64,000 nt of DNA from Liolophura sinensis (lineage: Eukaryota; Mollusca; Polyplacophora; Chitonida; Chitonidae), in assembly GCF_032854445.1 (NCBI RefSeq), contig NC_088300.1, forward strand, positions 17,267,191-17,331,190. Reading direction: 5' to 3'. A model generated the notes under the pieces. The model saw nothing but the letters and a program-made list of their open reading frames with translations. It made no database searches and was not told the origin of the DNA. The translations under genes were made by a program, and so were the position numbers. Positions 678-46,204 of the stretch are shown piece after piece; the stretch's first letter is position 1, and each line of letters begins with the position of its first letter.

Positions 678-907
678 CTCCTTGTGGTGAATCCATTCCA
701 CCTCCCACTACGGCATCAATTTTGCCGGGCCTGCCAGCAGCACCAAACCCAGACCCCCGGTGCCGGTGTGAAGACCCTCAAGATTGCGACATGCCCGGGA
801 CCACAGTGGACCCCGTGTGTCCAGCCTGGACGACATGCTGCTGTAGACCCCTGCCCCCAACAGTTCCACCGGCCCCAACGGCTGCTGCAGCCCCAGCACC
901 ACCATAG
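678..907 (+). CDS. Cysteine-tail secreted protein gene D, last exon (5' partial)
   Basis: Family not recognised. This is the 3'-terminal exon of a gene whose first exon appears to be off the window. It opens after acceptor TTTTCCAG with two bases finishing a split codon, then Pro-Cys, exactly as in the paralogous exons at 11081, 21438 and 32664. The body is Pro/Ala-rich and ends in C-x-C-x5-C-x10-C-x5-CCC followed by a short Pro/Ala tail and TAG at 905-907. Cysteine spacing is closest to gene A at 10.7 kb: both have Asp-Pro-x-Cys before the final cysteine cluster. It is on the opposite strand to its three relatives. The upstream intron end looks U2-like, with only a disrupted TTCCTT..AAT. The shared exon phase, Cys position and motif support a real exon; expression and the 5' part are unproven. 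Confidence 0.6.
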
Positions 908-10740: not shown

Positions 10741-11715
10741 TCACCGCTTATGCCAAAACTCACAGGAACAACACAGGCCAAACTGACTGCAAGTAGGATC
10801 GCTAAACATGCCATACATCATACAGGAGCTCTCAAAGTTCTGACAGTAACATGCGGTTAGACCTCCGGCTCCCATCATTGGGAAATCGGGTGCGTCAGGG
10901 ACATCAACCATTGCACCTAACAGAGGGTTAAACATCGGGCTCTGACGCTGTTGTGCGCCCATTTGGTTGTGCCCGCCCGGTTGGCCAGGAGACCCTGGGC
11001 CACCAGCTGGAGACATTCCCCCTGGGGCGCCTCGTCTTCCACCTCCCATGGGTCTTTGCGGTGCCATGGGGTTACAGGGCACTAGTAACTGTTAAGGAAA
11101 TCACTCAAGCACAAATGTTTCAATTAAACACTATATATATATATATATATATATGGTTGTATATTTCTATTTCTCGTATATTTGATTTCAGTTTTTAATG
11201 AAAATAAATTGTGTTGAATTGAAATATATATATACAATTTATTTTCATTAAAAACTGAAATCAAATATACGAGAAATAGAAATATACAACCATGTTAAAT
11301 TAGATCAGTTGGGCATCATTTTTGCGTAAAAGGCTTGTGGTATCATGTTATTCAGCCTGAACCCTATGCCCAACACACACAGAAAAAATATGATCGAAAT
11401 TAACATGTGTAGCTTCTATAGTTCCACACTAAACGATTTGCTTTGTTTCTCAGCATAGTCATCGTGTACGACGGAGGGTCTACTATTTGATCTCCACAAA
11501 TGACTTTGCTAGAACACTAAACGTTTCTTATAGATCTGATTGGCAAGGATACATGCACCAGTCATGGCCCCTAATAAAGTGGGTGATCCGAAACCATGGC
11601 CACCGCCTTGTCTCTGGCTCATTCCAAGGGCCAAGGGCCACATGGCCTGGCAGGAGCTGATGGCCACTAGGACCATCAAGCTGATCGCACACACTCGGCT
11701 AGGCATCCTTGTTCT
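10741..11715 (-). CDS. Cysteine-tail secreted protein gene A (two coding exons, U12-type intron)
   Basis: Family not recognised. Exon 1 starts at 11715 after a U2-like acceptor (TTCCACAG), so a 5'UTR exon lies upstream. ATG is at 11706 and coding runs to 11553. Exon 2 codes 11081-10741. The joined frame is 164 residues. Residues 1-21 form a signal peptide (hydrophobic ISLMVLVAI, likely cut after SCQA). A short Gly/Met linker follows, then after the intron Pro-Cys-Asn, a Gly/Pro/Met/Gln-rich stretch, and residues 129-158 with C-x-C-x6-C-x10-C-x5-CC-x-C; it ends HKR. The 471-nt phase-1 intron has donor GTATCCTTG and branch site TTCCTTAAC (11099-11091), 9 bases before acceptor TACTAG. A U2-style donor GTTTAG at 11522 is also in phase but lacks the U12 match. 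Paralogous to the genes at 21-24 and 32-34 kb. Secretion is well supported; function is unknown (matrix, mucus or defence are guesses). Confidence 0.75.
11082..11552 (-). other. U12-type intron of gene A
   Basis: Donor GTATCCTTG (consensus RTATCCTTT) at 11552, branch site TTCCTTAAC at 11099-11091, and probable branch A about 11 nt before the exon. All three signals fit the minor spliceosome. The intron also holds a 22-nt TA run and a 58-bp-arm palindrome. Confidence 0.75.
11153..11293. repeat. Perfect 58-bp inverted repeat with 25-nt loop
   Basis: Arms 11153-11210 and 11236-11293 are exact reverse complements (ATGGTTGTATATTTCTATTT at one end, its complement at the other). The spacer is AT-rich. 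It lies inside the U12-type intron of gene A. Perfect arms imply recent origin or an assembly fold-back artefact. Confidence 0.95.
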
Positions 11716-12274
11716 CTGTGGAATAGAAAAAACACGGAAACCCTGTAGTTTAAGGTATTGCAATTATAACGAAGGACAAAAGCCAGCTTTTCTAGATTCC
11801 AGTTAAAAGCTTTTTAATTAAACATCCTTGTCTCTGGTTTGACATGTTGATGGATAGCTGTTTTGTTGCGGAGTCTCAGCCGTGATTTTTGAGGAATGTG
11901 ATTTTTGAGGAATGTTGCTTGGTGGACTCACTCGATAGTCTACACGACTCTGACACGGAGCACGTCACTTGGACTTGCATGTATTTATTTTCATTATTTT
12001 GGTTGTTTCATTATCATTATTTGTTTGATTTATGTTTAAAGCCATACTTAAGAATTTTTCACTGACGTGATTACGGTCATAATTCTGGATGTTACAAGCG
12101 ATGGGTGTATTGTGCAGACAAAAAGCTGTGGAATCTGGATTTTCGGAAGAAGAGAGTGAAATGGTGGAAGGCATTGCAGCTTTGATGCTTTGTAAGAGAC
12201 ACTGTTTGCAATGATTACTGTATCAGTTGTTTATCACTCAAGGTAGCATTAAGATACTGACAAAATAACACTGT
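11716..12274. other. Upstream of gene A
   Basis: Should contain the intron to, and perhaps the exon of, the gene A 5'UTR; I cannot place the transcription start. A degenerate repeat with TTCACTGACGTGATTACGGT lies near 12055 and resembles sequence around 22.7 kb. Confidence 0.35.
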
Positions 12275-12440
12275 GATGTTGAGTTGGCTTCCTCTCCGGA
12301 AAGGTCTGTTAGCAACCAGCAGTTGGTGTGGTTTTCGCCGGGGCTCGGTCCGGTTTCTTTCCGCAATTAATGCTAATCGTATAAGTGAAAAATCTTGAGT
12401 TTGGCGTAAAACACCGATCAAATAAATAAATAAATAAATT
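12275..12440 (+). mobile_element. SINE family 1, degenerate tail copy
   Basis: GGCTTCCTCTCCGG, then CTTGAGTTTGGCGTAAAACA and an AATAAATAAATAAATAAA tail. Confidence 0.75.
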
Positions 12441-12684
12441 GAATGAGAGTAGTTACATGGAAAGAAACACTTTCACAAAATGAAAAACACGAAATGTACG
12501 TTGCAAAAAATACCTACGCAGCATAACATCTTCGCGTTAAATGTAACAGTTAAAATACTGCTGTTTCGTATAAGACCACCCCTATATAACAGTTAGCATA
12601 CTGTCTGACTACAAACAGACTTGGCACATTGTGTAACTTTTTAGCAATTAAAACATTGATAGACACTACAGATTAAATTGAATG

Positions 12685-12740
12685 GTTATGGCTTAACGCC
12701 ACATCAGCAATATTCCAGCCATACCGTGGCTAACTGTGGA
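12685..12740 (+). mobile_element. Third SINE-like fragment
   Basis: GGCTTAACGCCACATCAGCA followed by ATATTCCAGCCATACCGTGG. The pattern resembles a tail I recall from abalone-type SINEs; identification is tentative. Confidence 0.4.
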
Positions 12741-13094
12741 TCAGATAAATGGGAGTAAAAAGTAACATCGATTACTATGGAACCCTTAAACTTGTACTGT
12801 TACATGATTATCCTGTAACAGTAAAACTATTGCTTATGTACGAACAGTAATTCAAATGACCGATGGAAAAACGGGATAAGAAATAGCCTTTTGACAAAGT
12901 CACGTCAAAACATGCTACCCTGAGGATTAGATGCGTAAGACGGGAACTTATGGGTAGCAGATGTAGGGTTATTTTAGAACTGATATTATGCGATGTTGAT
13001 ACCGATCGAACACAAACACTTATAATAATAGTTATCAAATAATTCACCGTTAGATATTTCGCAAATTTTTACTTGAGAAAAAAGGGGCATGCTT

Positions 13095-13326
13095 CCCTGA
13101 AAATATTTATTTATTTGATAGGTGTTTTACGCCGCACTCAAGAATTTTTCACTTATACGACGGCGGCAAGCATTATTGTTGGAGGAAACCGGTCAGAGGC
13201 CGGGGGAAACCAATGACCTTCACACGTACGGCCGGAGTGGAAGCCAGCATGAGGTGGACTTGAACTCACAGCGACTACATTGAAGAGAGGCTCCTGGGTC
13301 ATTACGCTGTGCTAGTGCGCTAACAC
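13095..13326 (-). mobile_element. SINE family 1, near-complete reverse copy
   Basis: TTTATTTGATAGGTGTTTTA through the core, GAACTCACAGCGAC (B box) and CATTACGCTGTGCTAGTGCG (head). The first bases of the tRNA head and any target duplication are not clear. Confidence 0.85.
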
Positions 13327-14769
13327 TCTAAAGATATACCATTCACTCTCTCGAAAGAGGAACTCCAACTTTTCTCACTTGAAGAAAAGATTTTTGCATC
13401 GAAGAAGACAAATAATGAACTGTGGACATATCATCCACTACAGGGTATCCAGCTCGTGGCCCTAGATGGGTAACAACTTTGTCATCGAGGAAAATATAAA
13501 GCTTTCCGAAAGACCAATCCAATTCACGGAGACTTGTCTGGAGCATTAGAAAACTTATCCAAGAATAAAAGTCTCTATCCAGGGACCATAGATGATTGTC
13601 AGCTCAGCTAAGGGTTTATGACAGCGATGATGGGATAAGTACACTGACCATCTTTTGAATGCCTTTAGATATGTAACAGACATAAAGTCATTCTTAAGCA
13701 ACAGCAGATTCGACGCAGATATTTTTACAAAAGTTCAAATGTTATTGATCAAAACAATCCGTAACATCTGGTGACAGCTTTATCCTGACTTAATGATTTG
13801 TTACATTTTCAAGTTATATCTCCAAAGGTCCGATAAATAAACAACAGAATCAGATTTTAAGTTTAAAAGTGTCTTTGTGAAATTGACCCCTTGCTGTTAC
13901 TTAATGCCGCTTTATCGTCATTATTACTGGCTATTACTATGAGCTTAAGATTGCAATGGAAATCATATCATTATAAACCAGACAAGCCTCTACATGCTAT
14001 TTAGTCAGAACACAAAGCGTGGAGAATGGAGATCCAAAAACGAGCCGATGACGGCAAAGGACTAACCTGCTGATCAACCGGTGTAGCAACCGATGTATGT
14101 TCCTTTCGTGTAGAGGTAGCAATGACTACCTGGAGCCAGATCCTCCTCTATTTATCTCTTCTAAAGATGAAAGCTTTTCTGCATTTTTTTTTTATTTTTT
14201 TCTCATTCCTTCATTTGTCCTTAATGTTCGTCCTGTTAAAAATTTCGACTAAGGTAGACATGACTTTGTTTTTCTGGGTAGTCACGTGATTCGGCAAAAC
14301 AAACCGTTTCTCCATTTGTCACAATGTTCTCATTCACAGTACGAGTTACTTAACCCATATATCTCCATCTGCGGAATCTCAGCCTCACAAATATCGTGAC
14401 CAAGCAGATTAATTAACTCCTATCATGTTTTTTTACACCGGCTATTTAAAGAGCACGAGGTCCGCTGGAGCACTTGTTCACAGAAATGTCCACATCGGCA
14501 TGCTGACCGACCAACCGGACAAGTCCAGTTACCACATGCGTTATAATACAGACTATTGTCACGGTCAGGACAGACACCGTCAAAGTAATTTATATGTAAA
14601 TGCTGTCAAAAATCTAATAATATATATTCGGTTTTAGGGAAAAGGCTGGATCCAGGAAATATACTGTGAGCAAATATTACAAGTGCTTTTTACTTACGGT
14701 AATGCTTGATATTTCTCTCTGCGCGTGCACATCAGGACAGCATGTTCTCCTAACTTGCTATATGGGTAT
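13327..14769. other. Intergenic, nothing recognised
   Basis: No supported gene; only short chance frames. Confidence 0.45.
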
Positions 14770-15215
14770 TGCCGGCTTACATATATACATCTATATACAT
14801 TATACATCTCAGTGGTATACTATCTCTCTATCTCCGATATTTTGATATTGGCCTGTATACATCTGAGTAAGATACATCTGGCACTGGTATGATGTTTACG
14901 TATTGCCCCTAAACATCTGAGTGTGGCTTTTTTCAGTGTGATGTCCAGATATTGTTATCTATATGCATCTGACCACCTCTACATCTGATGCTTAGATACT
15001 GCCCCTATACATCTGAGAACCTGTGTATATGATGTTTAGATACTCCCGTGTATATCTGAGCACCTCTGTATATGTTGCTTAGATCCTGCCCTTGTGCATT
15101 TAACCACTTCTTTGCTTAGATATCGGCCATTTACACCTGGCACCTCCGTATATTTCCCCTATACATCTCACTGGTTTTTCAGTGAGATGTTTAGATATTG
15201 TCATCTATATGGCTA
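14770..15215 (+). repeat. Degenerate ~50-70 bp tandem repeat
   Basis: Irregular recurrence of CTATACATCTGAG, GATGTTTAGATA and TTGCCCCTA-like segments. Old, heavily diverged array. Confidence 0.6.
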
Positions 15216-15284
15216 ACATCTATATGGTTAACAATAAGTATGTTTCATGAAATCTGCCCAAGGGCCCTGAGGAGTGAATGAGTG

Positions 15285-15620
15285 AGTGAGTGCTTGGGGT
15301 TTAACGCCGTACTCAACAATTTTTCAGTCATATGACGACGAAGGAATCTTTAGGGTGCATGTACGTGTAATGTGCCTCCTTGTTGCAGGACGGATTTCCA
15401 CCCCTCTTTTATTTAGTGCTGCTTCACTGAGACGACTTACCGAAGGCAAGTAAGCCGCCCCGCCCGAGCTATTATACTGATACGGGTCAACCAGTCGTTG
15501 CACTCACTCCTTCATGCTGAACGCCAAGCGAGAAAGTTACAACTTCCTCTTTTAAAGTCTTAGGTGTGACTCGATCAAGGATTGATCCTGGATCTACCGG
15601 TCCCGAAATTATATCCAAGA
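15285..15620 (-). mobile_element. SINE family 2, reverse copy
   Basis: GGGGTTTAACGCCGTACTCA, ACAATTTTTCAGTCATATGA and CGAAGGAATCTTTAGGGTGC match the reverse of the family 2 tail and body. The head region (GATCAAGGATTGATCCTGGA) is diverged. Confidence 0.75.
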
Positions 15621-16557
15621 TGTGAGATTTGGATTAACTTTATGCTCTACCCACTTGAACAGGTCTGTCTGTTACTCGGTCAAATAGACCAGATTGTGTC
15701 CAGTTCCGCATAAACTGCGCTATTGGATGTGCATTGATCGTGTTGAACATGATCTCGACGTTGAATAAATGAACAGTTTCAATCAAAACGTAATTGAGAT
15801 ACATATTTTGATCAACGATGATAAGTTTCAAACTATCATGGTAGTATCTGGATACTGATTTCATTCATTAGCCTAGAACATTCCTCGCGCTTTTCCATCA
15901 TCGTTCAAAACAGTTTACAGCTTCTCTTCGCATGAATTCGTTCTAATTCCTTATTTTTTATACCGTCTTACTTTTTTGGTGGTTTGTGTTGAACGTTACC
16001 TTGGAAATTGGTGTTGCGTTCATTGACCTGAACGTCCATTTTTGTTGACAGGTAGTATAAGAATGTCTTTTTTGACGCCTAGATCATAATCGTATAATTA
16101 TTCACGCAGATTTCAATGGTGTGTCTAATCTGAGCTTTTAAGCAGGGGAACAGAGGTGAATATGACGCACTGGCGTTTTACATAACGTCAGCGTTCTGTT
16201 CTGATCCAAAGGTCTCCATCACGTTTTGGTAAGCATAAAGGTAATCAATGGGAAAACAAAAACATTCATTAAGAGGTTCTGTTTTGTGCATATGATTTAT
16301 GTTCGTATAAATTAGGAGGAGAGCAAGAATATGCTGGGAGACAAAGGCTAGGCTATGTGTTTGTTGTTAATGATGGTGTTAGGGCGCTTAGTACTTGTCC
16401 AGTGGTTTAGTAATATGCATGATAAAGCACTTGTTGACACAGAAGATCTTTATCAAGGTATAGCTGGATCACTAATTTCACTGAAATAGACTAATTGTTT
16501 ACCAGTAGTGATGTCATCGCATTAGAACATATAGCTGACTTTATACCTCATTTATCT
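15621..16557. other. Intergenic, nothing recognised
   Basis: AT-rich, no supported gene. Confidence 0.45.
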
Positions 16558-16692
16558 GTCAGCAACCTGCGGATGGTCGTGGGTTTCCCCTGGGCTCTGG
16601 CCGGTTTCCTCCCACCATAATGCTGGCCGCCGTGGTATAAGTGAAATATTCTTGAGTACGGCGTAAAACACCAATCAAGTAAAGAAATAAAT
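16558..16692 (+). mobile_element. SINE family 1, tail half
   Basis: CAGCAACCTGCGGATGGTCG through TTCTTGAGTACGGCGTAAAA and the A-rich end. Low divergence, truncated 5'. Confidence 0.85.
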
Positions 16693-17884
16693 TATAGCCC
16701 ATTGTCGGCAGATAAATGTGCTAATGAAAACGTCGCAGAATGTTTGATAATTGATGATGAGACAGGCCGCAAGTAGATCAGAAGATGCCTTTCTCATGTG
16801 CGAGTATATTTTAAAGTATATAATGGACCTTGGAGCATTAGGGGAAATTTGTTATCCGTGCAAATGTTCTCTTTCATTCTGGGCTTAGAAAAATCATATG
16901 AATATCGAGATGTCGAAGATGAATACATACTTACATGTAATTGGCGTTGTTGTTGTGTTAATGAGACCACATCTACCGCTCTTGTCTCCAGTTCAGTAAT
17001 GGCGGCTAACTTATACAGTGCAGAAATCACCACATGTGTATCTTCAACAAAACAGCATTCCTAGTATACAACTTTTCATAGCATAACCGTAACCAAGAAT
17101 AAGCAAATCGAGATTGTTCCTTTATGCAAGTCTAAACTAGTATTATCACAGTGCATGACTGGCATCCCGTGACAAAGCATCATCACCTTCCAAAGTTATA
17201 ATGGATTCATTTAAATTTACTTATTAATCGCAGTCTGAAACAGATATGACAAAATTAGCATGTCCATTTGCTTATCGGAAAAATTAAATTTGCAACGATA
17301 TTGAACGGAAATTGACGACGATTATAACAGCAATTTATGAGTGACCTAATATAAATCAAGATTTATCAAGTAATTTTTTTCTTCAAATACATAACATGTA
17401 ATATATATATATATATATAATTACGCTATTCATAAAACTGAAAAAGCTGCACATAAGCACAGACTGCATACATTGATTTAACCAAGGGATTTGTAGGGAA
17501 GGCTTCTGTACATACAACATACGTGCTATTTATTCATGAAGAAAACGCTACTCGCCCAGGTGTTGATGATCGGACAATTAACGTATGCTAACGATGACTG
17601 ATATTACACACACGCTACTTTCAGAGTCACGCATTTCCATATTGACACATGGCAATGGTCAGGTACGCGAGCAGTCACGCAGTGACGTATGACTAATTAA
17701 GGCTTAACGCCCACGCTTATTTATACGCCAGATTGAACTCAGATCGTCATGTGGAACCGAAACCGTGTATGCCCAGTCTTTTCTTGCACATCTTGTGCTC
17801 ATCATATATACCTGGGGCAGGTCATTTTCCATAATAAAAACATAAGTAAAACCATCTTTTGATACTGTCTCTTACACGAGCTTC
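16693..17884. other. Intergenic with a (TA)n run
   Basis: A TA dinucleotide repeat at about 17400-17419; nothing else recognised. Confidence 0.45.
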
Positions 17885-18005
17885 ATATTAGCTTTTACGC
17901 CTACTCAAGAATATTTCACTTATGCGACGGCGGTCAGCATTATGGTGGGAGGAAAGCGGGTAGAACCCGGTGGAAACCCACGACCATAAGCAGGCTGTTG
18001 ACAGA
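17885..18005 (-). mobile_element. SINE family 1, fragment (reverse)
   Basis: ACTCAAGAATATTTCACTTA through CAGCATTATGGTGGGAGG and the glycine-poor core. Flanked at 18045-18105 by a short TATGTACACT repeat. Confidence 0.8.
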
Positions 18006-18840
18006 CCTTGGAAATAGTACATGGTTCGTTACCGTCCGGATGGACACTCCAGTATGTACACTTCAGTATGTACACTCTAGTTTATACACTCCAGTTGTAT
18101 CCTGAGACAAGGTACTGACATGGATACCTGCAGTGTTTTGGCCTTTCACAGAACAAATTTATTGCCGCATACGTGCAGAATGAAGGAACCTTTTTTTATG
18201 TCCGAATTACTGAAGAAAATAACTGTGTAGGGATCACGTGCTATGTTTACTTTTTTACGGTGCAGCCATAGATACAATGGGTATTACGGTCTCTTTATTT
18301 CGATATAAATGATTTACATATTGTTAAACTTGCTGATGCTGAGTCTAAAGGTACGTTTGCGCCATAATTTAATTTATATTGGGACAAATTACCAAACCCC
18401 TTGGAGAATCTGTTCCCGCCAAGTTTAAATTCGTTTGTATTGCTGCATGCCTTGGTGAATACAATGAAATACAGGGAAATGAAATGTAATACGGATCCCA
18501 GGGATCTCATCCGTATCGTATGGAACGGTATGGAATTTTGCAGAACCCTTGAATACAGTATATATCCCAGTCGTATCTTGGAAAATAATCAGAATCCCAG
18601 CTGTACCAGTGGATACAGAATATATTCCTGTCCTCTACATGCTGGTTTAAAACTGTTCAAACATATTTTCAACGCATGGCCAATTAAAACATCCGAACCA
18701 AACAAAAACAATGATTAAAACTGAAATAAAGATGAAATCGAAAAATCTGCTTTCACTATATGACTTTAATTATTAAAACTGATTTACAAACGAATGCAAT
18801 GTCTTATCTACAAGTGTTATTATACATAAACTAAAATGCT

Positions 18841-18980
18841 TCTACATCAACAAAAGTGTTTCTACATCAACAAAAGTGTTTCTACATCAACAGAAGTGTT
18901 TCTACATCAACAAAAGTGTTTCTACATCAACAGAAGTGTTTCTACATCAACAAAAGTGTTATTGCATGAACAAAAGTGAT
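18841..18980 (+). repeat. 20-bp tandem repeat, 6 clean units plus 1 decayed
   Basis: Unit TCTACATCAACAAAAGTGTT, with a single A/G variant site (CAGAAG) in two units. Confidence 0.95.
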
Positions 18981-19324
18981 TCTTCAGATAACATATATAT
19001 ATTTTTTGCATCAAACATTTGATCCACTTAAAAAACGAAAGAACGGGATGCGATGGATGTTATTTAACGGTGTTTAACCTCCACGAAACAAACAACTTTC
19101 TAGAATAGAAAAGTTTCAGTACTGTTTTCCTCAAACCATACTGCGGATGAAAACAATTGATTACCATTGACAGTAAATGAATAAAGTGTTGACGTACAGA
19201 TGTACTGTACCAATGCACTCTCAAATAAAGGGCTTATGAGCATGTATATGAGTTGTCACTTCCATGCCGAAACTTGAAACTTAAACAAATGCAGTATTTC
19301 GTGAGATTGTTGTGTTCGTGTGAA

Positions 19325-19690
19325 CGCGGCCTAAAGAGTAACATTTAAAAATTAACACTTAACAGTGCTGTAAGAGTAACATTTAAAAATTAACACTAAA
19401 CAGTGCCGTAAGGATAAGCATATGAGCACTAACACTTAACAGTGCTGTAAAGAGTAAAGCCTAAACATTAACACTTAATAGTGCTATGAAGAATAATACC
19501 TCAATACTAACACTCAGCAAAGCTGTAAAGATTAACACCTGAACACTAACACTTAACTGTGCTGTAAAGAATAATGCCTGAACACTAACACTTAACTGTG
19601 CTGTAAAGAATAATGCCTGAACACTAACACTTAACTGTGCTGTAAAGAGTAACACCGGAGCACTAAACCCTCAACAGTACTATGAAGAGT
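19325..19690 (+). repeat. ~37-40 bp tandem repeat, about 9 units
   Basis: Recurring TAACACTTAACAGTGCTGTA then AAGARTAAYRCCTGAACAC. A minus-strand 64-codon repetitive frame arises from it and is not a gene. Confidence 0.85.
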
Positions 19691-21205: not shown

Positions 21206-24135
21206 TTAGACCACTGGTCTTGGGTCCTCGCAGCAACATGTGTAGCCCGTAACCCTGGTCGCGCATTCCCTTGTTGTTTGGGGGTTAATGTACATGAAAG
21301 CCGCACTCTCACAGTCACGTTTTGGGTAGCAGTGGCATGCCATTGGTTCTCGTGACGCCGGACCTTGGCCGGAAGGGGGCGCCATTTCCAGCGCCGAATC
21401 CATCGGTCCGCGCATGGCAATGGGCTGATTACAGTTGCCTGGTAACACGTTGTTAAGGAGAACACATTCTCAGGTATAAACAAGGGCAGTATCTGCCTAA
21501 TTATACAGGACTATTGGCTGTCGTGATCAGATGACTGATGGTTTTTGATTTAACATTTTTAAAATTTATCCGTTAGAAAGCTGACTGAAATTTTAGAAAA
21601 TATACCCGTTCTCTTCCAATAATGAACGTTTGCTGTAGTCTTTCATATTAAAATAAAATGAAAATCAATGACCAGTACTAAGGTGGGTGATAACTGATCT
21701 GTTGGACTATAACTTTACATTATCTTCGGTGGTTTGGTATTTGTTTTGTCTCTAATACACTTATCCTTATTCCCAATGCCATGTTACTGTTTACAGGTGA
21801 CCATTTCTTTATTTACAGTCGATTATTTCGACGTCCTCTGTGTGGCATGGTCTTTTATAATTTACTATTGCCACCGTTCGTGTTATCAGCTGACGTTAAC
21901 TTCAAATTGTGGCTTATTAAGTTTACATCCACAATAAAGATCACATTTCGATGTCAAGACGGTTTAAGGTGTAAGGCATCTAACTAAGAGGTGATAGGTT
22001 GCGTGACATTTATTAGGCTTCGGTTTGATACCGAGTTGATACTTGTTTTCAAGCAGACAACGCACAGGAGTCACCATGCAACTGAGCTTTCATTCACTGC
22101 TAATATAGCTTGCAGAAGGCCTGGCACATAATTTTGTCTGATCTAACGGGTAGATCTAAGGGCAAGGTGGTATGTGGATGTTATGATCACACGAAATATC
22201 ATCGTATATCGGGCGTAAGAGTATCGATTCTATACTATGGCTGCTACATGAATGGTGACTGATAACGAGCACATATGTCAGTCGTTATTTATTACTTTTT
22301 TATTTGATTGCCACACTCAAGAATTTCTCACTTTTAAGGTGCCGGTCATTTTTGTGGATGTAGGAAGCCTGAGTGGCCGGAATAAACCACCGACTTTTGA
22401 CACGTTACTGACCAACTTTCCTACTTGTGACACTGATATGCGCACCACATTTGTGAAGGAGTAATGAGTGGCCTCGGCAAACCTACATATTGTCACCGCC
22501 TATTGCCGTATATTATAAAGTCCCACAAGCAGTGAGAATATTAACGATTAGAAAAAAATCCTGTTTTAATTCCCTTTACGTCGTGTACTTTAACAAATTT
22601 GAAGACTTGCTACATAGAAGAAACGCAGTTAAAATGAAAACATAGTTTACTCCCAAAATACGACGGAAAACTGCAGTGATAACTGGAGTGACATAAGGAA
22701 TATAGTCATAATTCTGGATTTTATACCAAGCTTATAGAAAGGATACGTTCGTAATATGACGACAAGAGCATCAAGTGGGCAAGCCTTTGGCGATCAGCTA
22801 TGCTAGGTGTTATAGGCTGGACTGGCCTGGGTGTCGTCATCACTGGGCCTGTATTTGAAGGAGTTACTGTTTGAGTGGGTGCAAATCTCGATCCGCTCAA
22901 AGAAGAGTTCTGCCCAGCTGTAGGCGTGGGTCCGCTCTGTCCAGTCCCTGAGGGAACTGTACCGAAATTAGCAAGGAGGCGCTGACGATAAAACCAGGGC
23001 ATGTTTTCTAGTTGATTCTCAAAGGGAAACATCCACATTTGTTGTCCGGGTGACATACCTAGTCCCGGCCATGACCATGGTTGTACAGGATAAACCTGGT
23101 TATTTCTGCTTTGTTCTGGTACTAACGGCAGTAAAGGTTGTTGCGTCCGTTGTCGTGTCGACTGCGTTGTCGGCTTTCGTGTCGTTAGTCGCACTGGTAA
23201 CTGTGTCATCTGTTGTGCTGGTGGTTGTGTTGGTTGTATTTCTTGTGTTGCTTGCGTGATTCCAAATGCCTTTGGTTGCAAAACACTTTCTCTGTTCATA
23301 AGCCGGTTTCTGATAGCCTGCAGAAACGCTTGCTGACTCGGCGCTTGAGTTGGCACGTTTCGGCTCAGAACTGGCGGAGATTGTGTTGAAGGAGGCCTAG
23401 AAATCGCATCCCAAATATTAAATCTACCTGCTATTCGACGCATATTTTGTCTCATTATTTGTTGTCGATTCCACTCAACCGTTCGAGGGTCCGCCTGTCC
23501 CATATTTGACAACACTTGCTGCTCAGTGGAAGCAGGTGTCACGGGTAAAGGGTTAGCTTGTGTCGCCTTGGGAACCAATGGATTTCGAACAGAATCTGGC
23601 GAAGATTGCCTAGGTAGAGCATTCGGCTGAGCTTGCACTGGTTGACTGGCGACATTGTCAGGAACTGAACCAGATTGCTGTACGGTGGAAGGCGGTTTAG
23701 ATTGCGGGACATTCGAAACGCTCTCCTTATTTCTTAGGTCGAATGACACTGGAGCCCCTTGGCCGATTGGTGGAAATTGAGAGGCTCTCCGTGGCAACCA
23801 GATGTTGCCGGAACTTTCCTGTTTATTAAACCACTGGTTATTTCCCGAGTTTCCGGAGTTTCCGAGCTGCTGACTCAAAGGATTCCCTCCCTGGAAGGTT
23901 GTACTAGCATTAACGCCCGCATTCTGGGTATTTTCTGTCGGTGCATTGTTCCCATTAGAGTTAGCGGAATTTTCCTGTCCGGATGGTTGTAAAACCCAGG
24001 GATTTGTGCGTATGGTGATTCTCAGCAACTGGGAGTTTTTCCCTGAAGAATCCACGGGTGGGTTTCCTTGACCATTCACACATAGCGCCCCTAGAGATAT
24101 GACACTAACCAGGTAAACCATCAGGCCCAGGCGCC
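21206..24135 (-). CDS. Cysteine-tail secreted protein gene C (two coding exons, U12-type intron)
   Basis: Family not recognised. Exon 1 opens at 24135 after acceptor CTTGCAG. ATG is at 24121 and coding runs to 22747. Exon 2 codes 21438-21206. The joined frame is 535 residues. It starts with a signal peptide (VYLVSVISLGALCVNG). A very long Gln/Asn/Pro/Ser/Thr-rich disordered region follows, containing one aromatic patch (PWSWPGLG ... MWMFPF ... PWFYRQR). Exon 1 ends Ser-Tyr-Tyr-Glu. After the intron come Asn-Cys-Asn-Gln, a Met/Pro-rich stretch, and residues 493-528 with C-x-C-x5-C-x15-C-x8-CCC. The phase-1 intron has donor GTATCCTTT, the exact U12 consensus, and branch TCCTTAAC 13 nt before the acceptor. 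Closest relative is gene B: same cysteine spacing, shared DCESAA, and a shared 16-bp donor junction. Secreted; role unknown. The 458-codon uninterrupted frame makes chance unlikely. Confidence 0.82.
21439..22746 (-). other. U12-type intron of gene C
   Basis: 1308 nt, phase 1. Donor GTATCCTTT at 22746-22738. Branch site TCCTTAAC at 21459-21452, 13 nt before the exon; acceptor TTACCAG. A degenerate MESC-like repeat fragment lies inside at about 22290-22460. Confidence 0.85.
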
Positions 24136-27100
24136 CTGCAAGTACAGAATGATTGATATCGCGCTTGTATTAGTCTGTTTAAAATTAATTCATCGATTTA
24201 TATCAAGAATTACAAACAAATAATCCCTGTTACATTTCTGTTTTCGTTTTTCAGTGGAAAACAGACATATCAGTTGTATACCTAATATAATTGTTGTGGC
24301 CGTTTGCACACTCTGTAGACGTCAAATGTAAAAGGTTGGTGATTTCAACCATCGGTACATTCGACCATCATGATATAAGTGAATAATTCTTGAATATGGG
24401 GTAACACAGCAATGAAATAAATAACAATAAACGTACATGTAAAACTATACATCCATTTGGTGTATGCTATTTTGCCTTTATTTGTTATTTATTTGATTGA
24501 TCATGTAAGGACACACTCAAAAAGAGTGATGTCGGTGAGGTTTATGAGCTGTCATTGTCTGAGGAGTTCACAAGGACCGCTGATAAAAAAGTAATTTGAA
24601 TTAAATTTAAAATTTAAATTTGATAATTTCTGTGCATATTGACAAAATATATGAGCATTACCAAATCAGAAATCGTGAAAAGACTAAATTAGCGTATAAA
24701 TTCCATATGACAACGAGCCTATATACATGATGATGTTGCCGTCCGTCAAGAAACATTTTCGTTATTGTAGGGAATACTCATAATGTGTACATTATAGTCA
24801 GGACAAAATTGCAGATGAGTGAGCCTTAATATGCTGTACAATCATCATATTTGATTACGCCTAATACACATTGAATTTTAGCGACGATTAGATGTAGGCT
24901 TACACATATATTAGAGCTCTGATATGTTTCCTTTCAGTGAAACATTAATACATGGGGATTCTATCAAACGGCTTTTACTTATTGGTAAACATGTAAGACT
25001 TCAACACAAAATAAAATGAGAAGATGCCTTCATTTTAACCTAACACCATGTGCTCACGCACTTTAGTTCTTTACGTTCCAAAACAAACGTTATTATCTTC
25101 TGTGCCACAACTGCATTGCAGCAAGCTAAACTTTGTTGGTGTGTAAAGCCCAGACTGAAATGATGATGTGGCATTCGGTGTAACAAAACAAATGTAGATT
25201 GTTGTAGAACGTGATCCTGACATGACGGTTCTCAATACATGAACTCGCGCGCAAATTTAAACTTTAAATTGACCTTGTGCAATTGGTGCTCTAAACAGTT
25301 CTGCATGTTGTGGGATAGAATATCAGCTATTGTCAGCTCGAGACACAACTGTGGAGCACGAGTTAACCATCACTTGTGGAGAGCTGGAATGACGTATAAG
25401 ACTCTCTCTTTGCCTACATGCCGGCCAGATAAAAAAATTTACTTCCGGGAATATCAATTCATAAAAGTCTTGATGTCTTTATTTCTGTTAAGGGAAACTA
25501 ACAAAACAAAAACAGCCATGTCCAACAAAGCATATATGTCGACCTGTTTTTTTTTTCGATCAAACTTTTTGTCGAACTTTACCGATATAGAATGAATGTT
25601 GTGTGATTAAACCATAAATGTTCGACTTCGTGACCTGACGATGTGACTTGATATTACTAGTTCGTGACTGGTGAGATTGACCTAGATGTAGAACTATATC
25701 TCAGGCAACTACAGTTAAAACAAACTCCTCGAGCCTTGTGACAGTAAACAATCTTCGTTTGAGAAGTGAAACAAATTGCTAAGTTTTACGGCCCGGATCA
25801 AATGCTATATAATAAGCATGCTGCAGTCTTATTCATACAAAGAAGGTAAAAACTTCTCGTAATTTTCACGGTTTACGCATCTCTGTCGCACAGTCTCAAA
25901 CAGTGCAGCTTGTACCGGATATAGCTTTCAAATACATATTTTATGTAAATGTATGCAATTTCATTTGACAGAGACTTTTCCAGCTCATTCGAATTATCAG
26001 TTCAAATCCACCACCTTCGTTTACATTAATAATCCTGGAGAAAATATTCATATTCATATCCCAGTTCATAACGTGAACAGATGTTATACTTCCCAAAATA
26101 TAGAACATCTCTAAAAATGTGCTCTTTGCTTAACTGATAAATCAAAATCAAAAGTTGTGATTACATTTCTTAGTGCTATTTTGGAGGTTAATTTCATAGA
26201 TTGAACAATGTAGAGGCCGTTACACTTCGGAGTGCATATTATGATATATTCCAAAGTACAAAGCACATGTAATGAAACCGTTTCAGTATTAAACACTCTT
26301 CGTCAATTAAGAAGTCACGAACGCAATACTGAGTTGTTTCTTAATTGTCATTATACTGGTCTTAGTATTTAAAAAAGATCATAATTCGTTTCATATATAG
26401 AAAGTTGAAAGAAAAAGAGTTAGCATATGTAAGCTGCTATTGGGTAATGGTTAATTAAAGAACTTTATGAATAAGAGAATCAAAAATTGTACAAACCTGG
26501 ACATTCGAGCTTTGACCGCATTACTCCGCTCTCTGAACAATCGATCAGCAGTGTAATTTGGGCTCTCGCTTGTTCACCAATGTCAGGCCCTTCTTGCACC
26601 ACTGGACAGCATAGATGTAATTTATAATCTAACAATTAGCACGAAAGAGCATGACATATAAACACGGTTTGCAAAGCAATGTCCCTGTCAGGATTAGCGC
26701 TGGTTAGCGATGTGTCAAGTTATACTATCAGCTGTTCAATCTGAGTAACAAGCAGACCGATAAGTGCCACCTTTTAGTGGATAACCTCTTGGTTTCCATG
26801 AATATCTACAAGGACGACAATACTATATCTTCTGTGCGCTAGGTCCCCAATCCCATCCGCTGATCGAATGTTGAATTTACTTATACTGGTGGTCATAAAA
26901 AGCCAGTGAGGGGCTTGGCCGTGACACAACCATCTGATAATATATACCACTGTATTATACAGGTGGAGTCAGCGACCGTATATATTACCGGTAAACCCTG
27001 CATAGTGGTCACCTGCAAATCGTACATGTCATCCCGTTACTTTTTACACAATCTCGTGTCTGATTTTACTTGACACGACTAAGAAAATTAGCGTCAAGAT

Positions 27101-27244
27101 TACATATTCCGTTACCTATCTTAGAATGGGTTTTCAGGGAGTGACTCTGACCCTATAAGTGCTTTTTTGTAGATATATTCATTTCAATGACCTAATTATA
27201 AAGGCTTTTTTAAATATCATGTTGTATATATGTTGTTCTCTTGA
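24136..27244. other. Upstream of gene C; no gene supported
   Basis: Should contain the 5'UTR exon of gene C, which I cannot place. A SINE family 1 tail remnant lies at about 24355-24425 and a short AAATTTAAATTT palindrome near 24603-24620. A 118-codon plus-strand frame at 25239-25595 has no recognisable domain. Confidence 0.4.
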
Positions 27245-27249
27245 GTTTA

Positions 27250-27570
27250 GGACCGCTTCGGTGGCCTAATAGTTAGAGTATCCGCCTCGACATAGGCAGG
27301 CCGCGGGATCAATTCCGAGTCGGGTCATACCAAAGGTTTTGAAAATGGTACTTTCTGCTCTCAGCACTCAGAGGTTAGAGCAAGGAAACGTGGCTGGTTG
27401 GCCTAGTGTCAATCTAATGCGACTAGGTGGTTTGTCTTCGGTATGATACTTTAGTTGCGGCAGGATTTTTGGGGCCCTGCTGCAAGAAGACACTGTATAT
27501 GTGCACACACCTAATGACTCCTCGTCGTCATGTGAATGTTAAGTATGACGTTAAACTCCAAGCATACATA
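27250..27570 (+). mobile_element. SINE family 2, best copy
   Basis: tRNA-like head CCGCTTCGGTGGCCTAATAG with A box, B-box-like GGGATCAATTCCGAG, body GGTCATACCAAAGGTTTTGA, tail CCTAATGACTCCTCGTCGTC and TGACGTTAAACTCCAAGCAT, ending in an (CATA)n run. Distinct from family 1 in head, core and tail. Confidence 0.85.
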
Positions 27571-27779
27571 CATACATACCCCTGAGTTTACATTTCCACA
27601 CCATATCAATTGCGTTTTATTGCATTTTGACAAAAGAGGCAGCAAACTCCCTAGTTGTATACGCTCCCATTTATTGGTTATTTTCATGAACAACGATTTT
27701 CAAATGGAGAAACACGTGCTGGAAAGGGGTTTGGTTTCAAACTAAGTTCAAAGTTATTTATTTATTTATATATTTATTT

Positions 27780-27835
27780 GTAGGCAGGCCGCGGGATCAA
27801 TTCCGAGTCGGGTCATACCAAAGATTTTGAAATTG
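27780..27835 (+). mobile_element. SINE family 2, short internal fragment
   Basis: AGGCAGGCCGCGGGATCAAT through ACCAAAGATTTTGAAA, almost identical to 27295-27350. Likely a local duplication of that copy. Confidence 0.75.
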
Positions 27836-28009
27836 CTGTTAACCCAATGCCCATTATTAATTTGTACGATGGGAATGTGTTCTGTTTTGGGTTGGAGGAA
27901 ACTAGAGTAAATCATCAGTATATTACGGACAAACTTTCCCACCACTGACATACAGATATACATAACATTTTGGCGGAGGACAATTGGTCATCACAGAACA
28001 TTAGATTTT

Positions 28010-28100
28010 ACTTATTTGATTTATTTGATTGATGTTTTACCCCGTACTCAAGAAAATTTCATTTATACGATTGTGGTAAGAGGAAACCGTCAAAGAGGAA
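28010..28100 (-). mobile_element. SINE family 1, tail fragment (reverse)
   Basis: TTTATTTGATTGATGTTTTA, CCCCGTACTCAAGAAAATTT, then divergent core. Confidence 0.65.
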
Positions 28101-29061
28101 AAGAAAAACTTTTGTGTGCTATTAGGTCAGTGGATCTCGACTTAGGTTATTTAGATTAGGTAGTTTACTCATTTGGTGATTTTACAGGTAACGTAAAGTG
28201 ACAGCAAGCTGTGGGGCAAGGTGGCGTCCTTTAGGACTACAGTATAGTATATGCATATCATAATCGTGACATTTCCACTTAGAATATGAAATACGTTTCT
28301 CATTAAAATGCTGAATCAGTAAATTTAAAGGAAAAAAAATTGGTAGTAATATTTTAAAGTGAATTATGTTAAGTCTACTTACAATTATGTTTGTAAATAA
28401 ATAGTATTGTTTCTCGCATTTATTCGTTGCCAGTGTTCATTTAGTATAATGCTTACACAAAAGAAACGACAACAAAAAATATAACCAAAGTTATTTCAGG
28501 AGCGGGGTCCATACAAAACTAAACGGGAATAGGCATTTTTTTTTTATTTCTTGCTTGGTAACTCAATAAAATCACCTTTTAATCCGGAATTCTTAAGAGG
28601 CCATAGGATATGCCATTTTAGAGAAACCGGAAACACGATGCGTCTTCATCCATACCCTACGCTCTTCAGTATTAGAGGCAAGAAACTCATGCGTACGGTC
28701 CAACTTATCATTAACCTGCCACGCCTTGTGGCCTCCCGGTTGAGACCTTGGGGGATATCGCCAGGACTAGACTATTGTACTACCACTTTCTCGTAGAAAA
28801 TGGCATTAAAAGTGTATCAAGATTGTCTCATAATCAGCTGATTTAACACTACTTCTACGTGGCAAAACGCTGAACTAGGAACGGGTGACGTCACATACTT
28901 CTACGTGGCAATAAGGTGAACTAGGAACTGGTGACGTCACAGCGGAAAAGGTGCCTTCTCAGGTGGTAGAAATATCTCGCCCTTGATTTGTTAACAATGA
29001 GATCATGGGGTTCGTTCGATTTTTGCTTACTTTTAAACTGCGATATCTTAGTTATCCTGCA
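28101..29061. other. Intergenic with a ~46-bp direct duplication
   Basis: At about 28850-28942 a segment (ACTTCTACGTGGCAA ... GTGACGTCAC) occurs twice in tandem. Nothing else recognised. Confidence 0.55.
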
Positions 29062-30083
29062 TTACAAAAATAAAAAGTGACGTTTGTTTTTTTTTAAAAC
29101 TAAATGAGATGCTTCAATGCATGCAAAAACTGCCCGACGCATAGAAAAAGTCAGTCGTCTAATGAGATGACGTGAGATTCGCTCCTGGAGAGCGAGAGCC
29201 AGTTCCTGTCGGATGGCTGCAAGGTGTGGCCGTTGTCTTGATGACCCATGATATCCCAAGGGTGTTCTGTCTGGGACATATTTGGGGAACGTGCAGCCCA
29301 CGGAAAGACGTTGACGTCGTTGGCGTCCAAAAAGTTCTGCACAACTCGAGCTGTGTGGAGTCTGGCGTTGTCATGCTGGTACAGGACACCAAGTGGCTGC
29401 TGTTGAGTGAATGGCGGGACGACAGGACGCAGAATTTCATCCACACAACGTTGAGCGATTAGATTCCCGTATATGATGACCAGTGGTGTCTGTTCCTGCC
29501 CACAAATCCCACCTCACATCATCACGCTGTCGCCACCAAACGGTACCACCTCCTGGACGCATGATGCAGCCTTTCGTTCGCCTCTTCGACGGTAAACTCG
29601 CTGTCTGGCATCGGCTCGGAACAGGCAGAAGCGGTTTTCATCCGTGAAAACAACACGTTGCCAATCACGTCGCTGCCAACGACATACAATTCGAGCCCAT
29701 CGCATCCTCCGGCGACGATGTTCGGCTGTCAACAACTGTCCTCTGAATGGTCGATAGGCCCTACTTCCGTGAGCCATAAATCTCCTGGACACGGTCTGCC
29801 GACTGACTTGGTGACCTAAGGCATTGATAGACGATGACGTCACCGTCAAGAAGCGGTTCCTTAGGTGTAAGGTGCGCAGGTACCCGTCTTCTTTGGGCGT
29901 AGTTACTCTAGGCCTGCCTGTTCTTGGCCTTTCTGATGTCTGCCCTGTCTGTCTGTAACGTGGCATCAAGTTTGACACAGTTACACAAGAGCAGCCAAAG
30001 GTCCTTGCAATGTGGGCATGGGTGGCTCCCATGGATACCATACCCAGGGACCTCTTGCGTTGTTCTGAAGTAAATCGAGGCAT
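29062..30083 (-). pseudogene. Tc1/mariner (IS630-type) transposase, decayed
   Basis: ATG at 30083 opens an N-terminal helix-turn-helix region (ARTFGCSCVTV-like recognition helix, GRPRV linker) and continues into the catalytic domain: first Asp in FTDENRF, second Asp in YQHDNARLHTA, Glu in SQTEHPWD, with 34 residues between the last two (DD34E). The frame is broken twice. TGA at 29516-29514 replaces the Trp that usually follows the Ser-Val-Met-Met/Val motif. A later frameshift near 29250 moves the C-terminal part (LALALQERISRHLIRRL ... SMRR) into another frame. All catalytic residues survive. I could not identify terminal inverted repeats. An inactive copy is near certain. Confidence 0.88.
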
Positions 30084-30329
30084 TACTTTTGTGGTTTCCA
30101 GCACACTGTGTGTAACGTTTTTATACACTTATTACATGTGCAGTTGCGGTAATCCACGGGTCACGTGATTTTTCAACTTACTTGTTCTCTCAAAACAAAT
30201 TCGTGTGGGCGTATATAACGCTTGTCGCACATGGGAATATGCTTCGTACAATGTTTTCCTGCAACAATTTGGTATTAATTTACTGAAAAGGCTGGTTCAG
30301 TTTAACTCACGGAGTTGTAAAGTTTCTTT

Positions 30330-30720
30330 TTGATGTCAGTTTGTTTTACTTGATTATTGTTTAACGCCATACTCAAGAATTTCACGAATACTGTGATGAT
30401 CAGTTTTATGGGCAGAGGAAACCATTGTACCTGGAGTAAACCACTGATTTGTNNNNNNNNNNNNNNNNNNNNNNNNNNNNNNNNNNNNNNNNNNNNNNNN
30501 NNNNNNNNNNNNNNNNNNNNNNNNNNNNNNNNNNNNNNNNNNNNNNNNNNNNNNNNNNNNNNNNNNNNNNNNNNNNNNNNNNNNNNNNNNNNNNNNNNNN
30601 NNNNNNNNNNNNNNNNNNNNNNNNNNNNNNNNNNNNNNNNNNNNNNNNNNNNGATTTGTGGCAAGTTACTGACAAACGCTCCCGCGTGCGTGTGACACCC
30701 ATGCATGTTCGCATTGATGG
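30330..30720 (+). mobile_element. MESC-like SINE fragment split by the gap
   Basis: TTTAACGCCATACTCAAGAA, TTTTATGGGCAGAGGAAACC and GGAGTAAACCACTGATTTGT precede the gap; GATTTGTGGCAAGTTACTGA follows. Related fragments occur near 2570, 3410, 8200, 22290-22460 and 34680, each with a TAAACCACCGA-like motif. Confidence 0.55.
30453..30652. other. 200-N assembly gap
   Basis: Exactly 200 Ns, a placeholder size. The 7 bases GATTTGT occur on both sides. Confidence 1.
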
Positions 30721-31954
30721 AAGATGGACGGCCCAACGAACTCCATCGACTACTTACTGTCATAAGCCACCACGAGAAATGAAAACAGGGAAATTTCCAA
30801 AGCCCGGGATTAAACTCGTATACCCGTACACCTCGTGTTCAGGAGTTGCCCACCCAACCCACAGTCGTGCAGAGATGCTCAGTTGACACAGTATTCCAGT
30901 GAGACAAATGTATGTAAAGTTCAGAAGATACCTTATCTGAGTACACAATACCATGAATTATCAATATCAGAGTTCTTAAAAAATACAGATGTGGATATTT
31001 ATATGATTTCAGTAAGCTTTACCCTTCTTTTCACTGCTTAATCTTGTAAAACGTCGGTGTTTCATATGCACATATGATTGTCAGGTAACCAAGAGAACAA
31101 ACTACTGGTAGTAACATATCTACGTAGTTTTCTTTACATGTTTAATACTTTACAATTTTCAGCCATTCGCCATGGTCAAAAATACAATATAAGTCAAGCA
31201 CGTCTTTTCCACAGCTCAGTGTTAATAAAGCTAAAGGAATTTCCTTTTTGTTTATTTTTAGACTGAACAAATCCGTCTCTTCAGAAAAGAGCCCGAATCT
31301 TTTTTCCCATGCTTATATTCAGGTAGTTGGCAGATAAAACGGGTTTAAATAACTTTAATAACATTTCATTAAAGGCATACCTCTGAAAAATTACAGCTTA
31401 TCTAACATCTCAATGGAACGACAAATGATTCGTTCATGGGCTCTCTCAAGACATATTACATGCTCATCTGCTCGATTGCAATGGAAACATTACCAGTGTG
31501 AAAGAAGAAGTCGTTAACTAATAAAGACGACGTTCACATGCACTGCAGCGTAACAAGGGGGATTGTTTACTCGGCTTGGGACAGGCTTGTGTAGACAGGA
31601 AATGCTGAGGATCACGCTCATTCTAGATGACTCGGCTGTCGAGTTTCGTTGTACATGGGGAGTTGTTCGTAGACATTTAACTGAAAAGCCCTTCGGCACA
31701 TCATGAAACACAAATAAAGCAAGAAATAATAAAACTAAGTCGATCTATATGGAGAGAAATCATACATGAGTACAAATGGCTTATGAAAAACTCACTATGT
31801 GTATATATGTATAAGCAACATTTGTTTAAGAAATGTTCAATAAATACCTTGTAGTCAAATATGTTTTGGACATGAAACAATTTTGTATAATAATGTTTTT
31901 TTAATGTTGCTCTCAACACGAATCTAGTAATTTGAGTCCCTTATCAGTCTTGAC
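30721..31954. other. Intergenic, nothing recognised
   Basis: AT-rich, no supported gene. Confidence 0.45.
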
Positions 31955-32085
31955 AGTGCATTCCATTATTAATACAAATCCTGGACACAAAGTAGTCCCC
32001 TAATGAGAAACAGTATTAATACATCATGGGCGCAAAGTAGTCCCTAATGAGACACTGTATTAATACTCCATGAACACAGTTATCT
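31955..32085 (+). repeat. ~55-bp tandem duplication
   Basis: CAAAGTAGTCCCCTAATGAG and TATTAATAC segments occur twice, with a partial third. Confidence 0.75.
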
Positions 32086-32425
32086 TCAAGGTAGGCCTAT
32101 GTAGCAGTCTTTTACACCAATCGATATACACCAATCGATATAATGGTTCTGTGTCCACATATCACCCGCTAGTTAAAGTCAGTGTATATATCAACGCACA
32201 GAGGCTCCGGCAAAGTCTATGGATGCTGAATGGTGGTCAATCAGCTATCTACATCACTGCAAACACAGCATTGTCCGTGATAGTTACTAAGAAATCCATT
32301 TCCCCATTCGCTCCGATCCGATCCGATCCACCTGCATGTCAATCATCCGCGTCTCCTGGTAGCAGGTACATCTATATGCCCCGCTTCACCGACCGATTCC
32401 CTTGCGTTCAGGTGGATTGCCAGCT

Positions 32426-34055
32426 TTACCTGCCGATGACTGGAGGCTCCTCACAGCAGCAGGCAAAAACCCGTCAAGGCACTGCCACACTCGTCCTTTG
32501 TTTTCTGGTTGATGAACCTATGAGCAGCGCTCTCACAGTCATTGAAGGGGATACAGCTGCAGGCCGGTGGGTCAGCGGTGTCGCCGGGAATATCGGATGG
32601 TGGATGTTTGGGTGGAAGGCTTGGATGATTGGCATCACGGTGGGCCGCGTCTGGTAGCACAGGCCTGGTGGCAGTATTAAGGAAATCACGCTCGCATTAT
32701 ATAAACTGTCTTAAACTAGACTTTTTCTAAGCCAAAATCATGACTACAATATCACTAAAGAAATGGAGAAACTTGTATGCAAGTATGGAAATCTCAATTT
32801 CGCCATTTAACCAACACTGGGAATCGGAAATCCTTAATTAATCCATGACGTTACGCAGTACATAATATTGTCACAACAATATTGAGAACCGGTATAATAG
32901 AACGGCTGACGCGTGACGTCATGATGTGACGTAAGTACGCAAGATAGTCACAAAGAGAACACAGAAATGACGATTCCGAAATAATTAATTAAGCCGACAA
33001 AGAGGTTTGTACGTGACATCAATGTGGTATTGACTTTTCGAGATGGAGATTTAGTTTATTGACGTCTGATTAAACACATTTTGTTTTGAACTTTTTTGGA
33101 CGAGGAAAGCAGAGAACGCCTGGACAATCATTAAGTACTAACTGGAGAAAATGAATCAGTTATTGCGCGTGCATTGTTAACATTTATAGAAGAAACCAAT
33201 GCGTTTTAATCATTGGGTGCTGTAAACATTATTTCGTTTAGTGATGGAAGCAGAAGAGTTTACTTGAAATTCATTTTACATCCGCATTGTAGTATCAGTG
33301 TCAAGCCTAGATTATTACTAAATCTATAACAATGACCTGAAGGGTACATTGATAACTAGGCTACGCTTTAATTACAGCAAATAAACAATCTTCAAATATT
33401 TATTATGGAAATGAATAAATATAGGGTAAAGCAAAACAAAGGATACGTTCGTAGAACGTATTTCTGATCTGGCCAATGGGTAGAGGATTGTTGGGCACGT
33501 TGTTCTGTAGGTTGTATATTCTTGGTCGCTGTATCTGTCCCGTGGAGCCTGGAGTGAGTGGGGGGAAACCATGAGCTCCCCCGTTCACAACCAACCCACC
33601 CAAAGAGAATCCTGGCAGTACTCCCACGGGCGGAGTGGTTGTCCCCCCTTTGCTCTCCGCCGGAGCACCTGCCGCCAGAGATCCATCGATGACAGCACCC
33701 CCTTCCGGCTGGGCCGGGAAGCCGAGGTTTGCGGGTGGCTGGCCTTCTGTTTCTGTTGTGGGCGGGGTGTTTGGTAAGAACACGTGCAGGGGTGGGGCAT
33801 ACCGAGGCTGTGGCGGACGCAGTTGGCTCAGGTACATCTGTATGAGGGCGAGTATAGAGCTATGAGGGTTGTGAGAGTTATGAGTGTTGTGCTGCCCAAG
33901 GTACGGATTGTAGTGAGGCGACGGAGTAGGCACTGGAGGTGGCGTGGGTGGTGGCTCATGGAACTGTCCCTGTGGTGGAAACGGTGGATAGAAAATGGCT
34001 GCATCTGAGACGATGGTCATAATGCCACCCAGTACCAACCACGCCTTCATGTTTC
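32426..34055 (-). CDS. Cysteine-tail secreted protein gene B (U12-type intron; cysteine exon apparently frameshifted)
   Basis: Family not recognised; paralogue of genes A and C. Exon 1 opens at 34055 after acceptor TTTCTAG, with ATG at 34050 (MKAWLVLGGIMTIVSDAA signal peptide). A Pro/His/Gly-rich disordered region of about 180 residues follows, ending Phe-Tyr-Glu at 33447. Donor GTATCCTTT is identical to gene C over 16 bp. Branch TTCCTTAAT (32684-32676) is 11 nt before acceptor CACCAG, so exon 2 would start at 32664 with Leu-Cys-Tyr-Gln, matching the conserved Cys. That frame does not reach the cysteine motif: the C-x-C-x5-C-x15-C block (ACSC ... DCESAA ... DEC) lies one frame over, and the final CCC lies back in the first frame after a TTTTT run, ending at TAA 32426. 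An alternative acceptor (GCTACCAG, exon from 32650) enters the middle frame directly and stops at 32451. Pseudogene, indel errors or alternative splicing are all possible. Confidence 0.6.
32665..33446 (-). other. U12-type intron of gene B
   Basis: Donor GTATCCTTT at 33446-33438; branch TTCCTTAAT at 32684-32676; acceptor CACCAG at 11 nt, with a second possible acceptor 14 nt further on. 782 nt, phase 1. Confidence 0.8.
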
Positions 34056-45815: not shown

Positions 45816-46204
45816 ATTTGTACATTGTATGCTTAAATACGGTAAAATGTGGCATAAATTATGCATTTCATGTTTCCATGCTTCCTCATGACTTCATGTG
45901 GTCAAAGGAGGTAAGTCTCGAAAACTAAACTAAATCTGCTCTTTATTTCAGTCTATCGTTGTTATTGTTTTTAAAATTCTGTAGCCAAATTAGTTTCAAT
46001 ATAGATTATCAATATATAGCGCACTTATTTTAAATCTTAATTCTTCTTATAAGAAAAATAAAGTTTACCCTAGTTTCTCCGGAAAGCAAATTTTATGCTG
46101 CTATAACTCACAGTCCGGTTTCTTCAAAAACTAAGTTTTAGGTTATATTAAGACTCTGGATTCTCACAAAGGGAGTTTTCAAAAACAAAGGTAATGTTAT
46201 AGTG

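Follow-up and report, generated by a model that had tools for sequence, protein, structure and literature searches.

U12-type and U2-type introns at one homologous site in a tandem array of secreted-looking genes of Liolophura sinensis

A 64,000-nucleotide (nt) stretch of the Liolophura sinensis genome (GCF_032854445.1, NC_088300.1:17,267,191-17,331,190, forward strand; hereafter the window) covers one end of a tandem gene array. In its related members, an intron at one homologous site, ahead of the second coding exon, is U12-type in some and U2-type in others. At least 14 such genes, g1 to g14, lie over about 204 kb of the contig, which we call C6 and in whose coordinates array positions are given. 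Members were located by a six-frame scan for a cysteine tail pattern, CxC...C...C...CCC, over C6:17070001-17381190 (all but 190 bases); g3, whose frame break hides its tail from the pattern, was added. Four members fall at least in part within the window, and their features, in window positions, are as follows.

11553..11706, minus strand: first coding exon of g1, with a signal-peptide-like start, ending in phase 1
11082..11552, minus strand: U12-type intron of g1, 471 nt, with donor GTATCCTTG and branch site TTCCTTAAC ending 9 nt before the exon
10741..11081, minus strand: second coding exon of g1, with the Cys tail, opening x-P-C
22747..24121, minus strand: first coding exon of g2, with a signal-peptide-like start, Pro/Gln/Ser/Thr-rich, ending YYE + 1 nt
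21439..22746, minus strand: U12-type intron of g2, 1308 nt, with donor GTATCCTTT and branch site CTCCTTAAC ending 13 nt before the exon
21206..21438, minus strand: second coding exon of g2, with the Cys tail, opening x-N-C
33447..34050, minus strand: first coding exon of g3, with a signal-peptide-like start, Pro-rich, ending FYE + 1 nt
32665..33446, minus strand: U12-type intron of g3, 782 nt, with donor GTATCCTTT and branch site TTCCTTAAT ending 11 nt before the exon
32451..32664, minus strand: second coding exon of g3, with two breaks in the reading frame when set against the paralogues
1..12, plus strand: last 12 nt of the first coding exon of g4, ending in phase 1; the remainder lies left of the window, at C6:17266335-17267190
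13..677, plus strand: U2-type intron of g4, 665 nt, at the homologous site, GTAAGTACA ... TGTTTTCCAG
678..907, plus strand: second coding exon of g4, with the Cys tail, opening x-P-C-G

The initial annotation of the window had proposed U12-type introns in three paralogues, g1, g2 and g3. The donors it placed at 11552, 22746 and 33446 and the acceptors at 11082, 21439 and 32665 were all found in the sequence, as were the branch motifs 9, 13 and 11 nt before the acceptors, and a shared phase-1 site followed by an exon opening residue-Cys was confirmed in each gene. For the family, three is an undercount; a fourth member lies in the window (1-907, plus strand), and its intron at the homologous site is U2-type. 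Along C6 the members of the array lie as follows.

C6:17097577, tail start of g14
C6:17106647, tail start of g13
C6:17111546, tail start of g12
C6:17138213, tail start of g7
C6:17156435, tail start of g11
C6:17167782, tail start of g10
C6:17180611, tail start of g9
C6:17198079, tail start of g8
C6:17219948, tail start of g6
C6:17240580, tail start of g5
C6:17267951, tail start of g4, the sole member of the array on the plus strand
C6:17278041, tail start of g1
C6:17288527, tail start of g2
C6:17299854, second exon of g3 from this position

All 14 genes are built alike. In each, a phase-1 acceptor leads into the second coding exon directly before residue-Cys, and this exon encodes exactly eight cysteines (the junction Cys together with those of the tail) in 13 of them, at lengths of 75 to 1139 residues, the exception being the frame-broken g3. 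An x-Cys-Gly opening is found in all eight genes with a U2-type intron and in g12-g14, and not in g1-g3. Upstream, every gene has an open frame with a signal-peptide-like start, in some genes selected visually from several candidates, and a low-complexity body; thus described, the products look secreted. An acceptor-like AG lies just upstream of the ATG in most array genes and is poor in g10. Seven sequences from six of the 14 genes gave no Pfam match above cut-off (there was one sub-threshold Collagen match, in g6), and one g10 sequence had no match in PDB. In g9 and g10, dibasic KR-Q sites (RVKRQ and RAKRQ) lie about 10 and 40 residues ahead of the Cys tail; they suggest proprotein cleavage, which would release the tail.

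The type of the intron varies with position in the array. Six members have a U12-type intron, three at each end (g14, g13 and g12; g1, g2 and g3), and the eight between them have U2-type introns. Donors and branch sites were scored with generic U12 and U2 matrices, not fitted to the species, the branch score being the best U12 value within the last 40 nt of the intron. The U12-type six have donor scores of 14.5-15.8 bits with the U12 matrix versus -1.0 to 1.4 with the U2 matrix, while the U2-type eight, the tentative donors of g7, g10 and g11 included, score -17.4 to -4.1 and 3.0 to 10.7, respectively. At all three sites that had been called U12-type beforehand, U12 scores were well above U2 scores, the opposite of what would have refuted the call. 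The U12-type identity, the common phase-1 site and the occurrence in divergent tandem paralogues are supported. The donor consensus (A/G)TATCCTTT is matched at nine of nine bases in five of the six U12-type introns and at eight of nine in g1, and positions +3 to +8 read ATCCTT in all six. Branch scores are 12.1-14.5 bits in g1-g3 and 9.4 in g12 and g13, with the end of the motif 9-13 nt before the exon, compared with 3.0 or less in all eight U2-type introns. From these signals, the six introns are expected to be excised by the minor spliceosome.

The pairing of donor and branch motif is also uncommon by chance. GTATCCTT followed 200-1500 nt on by CCTTRAY and a YAG close by occurs five times in the 311 kb of C6 that surround the array, each time at the homologous site of the family; in 100 first-order Markov simulations the mean was 0.55 and the maximum 3. 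This comparison is descriptive, the pattern having been set post hoc and widened to CCTTRAY after g12 was viewed, and it masks a tandem repeat at 46,000-47,700 of the window. Outside the masked repeat, GTATCCTT alone occurs nine times in the 311 kb, and six of these are donors of the family. Taken by themselves, donor octamers RTATCCTT are just mildly in excess (34 observed versus 22.8 simulated). The repeat itself (46193-47442, plus strand) is a degenerate array of units of about 23-28 nt in which 25 octamers between 46260 and 47376 look like U12 donors and could mislead a naive scan for such sites.

The genome also encodes the small nuclear RNAs (snRNAs) of the minor spliceosome. There are five genome matches for U12 snRNA, four of them above the Rfam cut-off, two for U11, two for U6atac and one for U4atac, with at least one of each kind above the cut-off. 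Stretches expected to pair with the branch site and the donor are found in the copies read: GTAAGGAAAAT in both of U12, AAAAGG in both of U11 and AAGGAGA in that of U6atac.

The two most similar members allow the intron ends to be compared with the rest of the gene. The genes g12 and g13 are recent copies: 24 of 331 nt differ in the first exon and 13 of 320 nt in the second. In exon 1, divergence is 0.079 at replacement sites (dN) and 0.069 at silent sites (dS), so that both kinds of site change at about equal speed; in exon 2 the values are 0.034 and 0.073. Their introns have 456 aligned positions, 383 identical and 73 different, with 573 gap columns, and the first 10 bases and the stretch from branch site to acceptor are unchanged. 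By eye, the g13 intron (C6:17106713-17107213) has a stretch like a short interspersed element (SINE), of which g12 has at most a diverged piece.

We consider it probable that an ancestral U12-type intron was duplicated along with the gene and turned U2-type in the middle members. A founder gene would have had a U12-type intron, which would have been copied at each gene duplication, and the U2-type state would have arisen in one or more ancestral genes of the middle group. The finding of U12-type genes at both ends with U2-type genes between fits an older U12 state, and we hold a change from U12 to U2, perhaps made more than once, to be the likely direction by a good measure. The base just before the donor may have contributed. 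Since the intron is in phase 1, exon position -1 is the first base of the split codon, and it is G in four of the five firm U2-type donors versus none of the six U12-type donors (Fisher p 0.015; the members are related and the rows not independent). G at -1 has been proposed to start the conversion of U12 into U2 introns, phase 0 sites converting most easily, and A at -1 is under-represented in phase-1 U12 introns (Moyer et al. 2020, PMC7367187). A change to G at -1 probably helped the conversion here, the junction residue being free to vary. In short, the shared phase and position, both sets of signals and the snRNA genes are seen in the sequence; we infer that the minor spliceosome acts on the six introns in vivo, that the change ran from U12 to U2 and that G at -1 had a role in it.

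Several observations weigh against this account. The tree (13 rows, 44 columns; g13 was omitted as a near-copy of g12) is poorly supported, with no starred branch, and requires three type changes. U12-type genes fell on one side of a branch in none of 200 bootstrap trees, and the approximately unbiased (AU) test did not reject that grouping (p 0.151). These results do not favour a single switch of type. The phase-1 donors of the six U12-type members and of g4, g5, g6, g8 and g9 are firm; those of g7, g10 and g11 were hand-picked among two to four phase-1 GTs and are tentative. With these three included, G at -1 rises to seven of eight U2-type donors (p 0.0047), a value on which we do not rely as the pick leans to G, and A stands at -1 in three of the six U12-type members. 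Because the branch site of g14 is degenerate (4.0 bits), the U12-type call there depends on a perfect donor and on relatedness to g12 (47% over 88 residues). The pyrimidine share before the acceptor overlaps between the intron classes, at 0.55-0.65 versus 0.60-0.85. Finally, two genes have broken frames. In g3 the frame after the junction reads RLCYQ..., the Cys tail CSCIPFNDCESAA... lies in a different frame, and the final cysteines return to the first; a second AG 14 nt downstream restores the tail frame at the cost of the junction Cys, and it lies beyond the usual distance from branch to acceptor. As the junction frame fails to connect with the conserved Cys tail, we regard g3 as either degenerate or mis-assembled. 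In g5, a frame break or unrecognised intron interrupts the first exon upstream of the last open frame, from which the phase of the donor was counted. A 14-row FastTree analysis grouped g1 with g4 (0.92), a grouping on which we do not rely.

The founder intron could instead have been U2-type, with the end genes switching to, or gaining, the U12 type once or twice. The AU test allows the U12-type genes as one derived group, a U2-to-U12 case has been reported, in a dipteran lineage (PMC2831892), and the U12-type genes are not uniform, in that g12-g14 share an x-Cys-Gly opening that g1-g3 do not. However, U12 signals hold more information, published work takes conversion to go almost exclusively from minor to major (PMC10639083), and two gains would be needed if the ends of the array are not sisters; we therefore regard a U2-type founder as unlikely.

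The initial annotation had also raised co-regulation of the family by the minor spliceosome. Selection could keep the minor intron in order to throttle or co-regulate its genes, a notion compatible with an ancestral U12-type intron converted in the middle members; the presence of U12-type introns in six members, divergent and placed at the two ends of the array, speaks for it. Nevertheless, eight members of like layout (8 of 14) do without a U12-type intron, which is thus not needed family-wide, and minor-intron evolution has been explained in neutral terms (PMC10639083). Family-wide co-regulation by way of this intron is therefore unsupported, minor-spliceosome control may act in the two end groups, and selection as the reason for the pattern seems rather unlikely.

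A little more doubtful still is a young, lineage-restricted family within which the U12-type intron was gained, or made from a U2-type intron. Gain of U12 introns in animals is, to our knowledge, accepted as near-absent. Very improbable is a separate insertion of U12 and U2 introns at one spot, given the identical phase and place ahead of x-Cys in 14 of 14 genes and the common eight-Cys second exon. Equally far-fetched is the idea that the introns are ordinary U2-type with U12 motifs present by chance or as non-functional inherited relics: all are GT-AG, a class of boundary that the major spliceosome uses too, but ATCCTT at +3 to +8 in six of six, the near-complete donor consensus, the low U2 donor scores and the unchanged intron ends of g12 and g13, beside 73 differences in 456 aligned positions, tell against it.

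Three known systems come closest to the array. Its U12-type introns resemble other U12-type GT-AG introns in their donor (GTATCCTTT), in a TTCCTTRAY branch site near the acceptor, in a phase other than 0 and in the presence of the snRNAs; they differ in lying in a fast-evolving tandem family of secreted-looking products, whereas minor introns are over-represented in older genes according to one survey, which also finds molluscs relatively rich in minor introns (PMC10639083). In the SCN and CACN1 genes for voltage-gated sodium and calcium channel alpha subunits, U12-type introns likewise survive family expansion, including tandem duplication (PMC2831892), but those genes are spread over several chromosomal regions, while here there is a single array with both types at one site. 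The type-switched clusters of U12DB (Burge et al. via PMC2831892) also have both types at one homologous position and number 87 among nearly one thousand (PMC2831892); there the introns are orthologous across species, and here six and eight paralogues are adjacent in one genome. In the literature searched, no tandem secreted family was described as having U12 introns, which does not prove that such a report is absent from print. Type switching is usually inferred from single introns across species, and 14 paralogues in one array with both states may provide a natural series for studying the change from one intron type to the other. Phase-1 sites are predicted to convert less easily than phase 0 sites (PMC7367187); from the array, a phase-1 case, it would seem that such sites can be converted if the residue at the junction is free to vary.

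The limits of the array were also surveyed. Whole-genome protein searches with g1, g2, g4, g5, g6, g10 and g12 matched at E <0.001 solely within the array, and at this high divergence the same searches miss array members too. No further members were found in the 20 kb left of C6:17090001 or in the 50 kb right of the window. Pattern matches at 17194599 and 17086978 were dropped by eye as array members, as were 17290332 and 17266747, which lie on the opposite strand of the first exons of g2 and g4, respectively. Weak matches outside the array at C6:71469595, C3:8331956 and C6:81745333 lack the tail pattern or are repeat-like and were rejected; further weak matches lie at C10:30805917, C7:11944178, C7:11944307, C8:16672460 and C12:28598071. 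The pattern TAYGARCRTATCCTT has eight matches genome-wide, of which g2 and g3 are two.

Other features of the window stand apart from the family. Open-frame pieces in several frames at 29062-30128 (minus strand), close to a 200-base assembly gap at 30453-30652, resemble a Tc1/mariner-type transposase. Many copies of a SINE-like repeat are scattered on both strands over 4360-61813; their tail is like TTCTTGAGTACGGCGTAAAACACCAATCAAATAAATAAAT, presumably a form typical of molluscs. At 58199-58630 (plus strand), downstream of an open reading frame (55896-56399) that is leucine-rich-repeat-like in appearance, a 27-nt repeat gives in frame a nine-residue repeat such as SEREVASRA.

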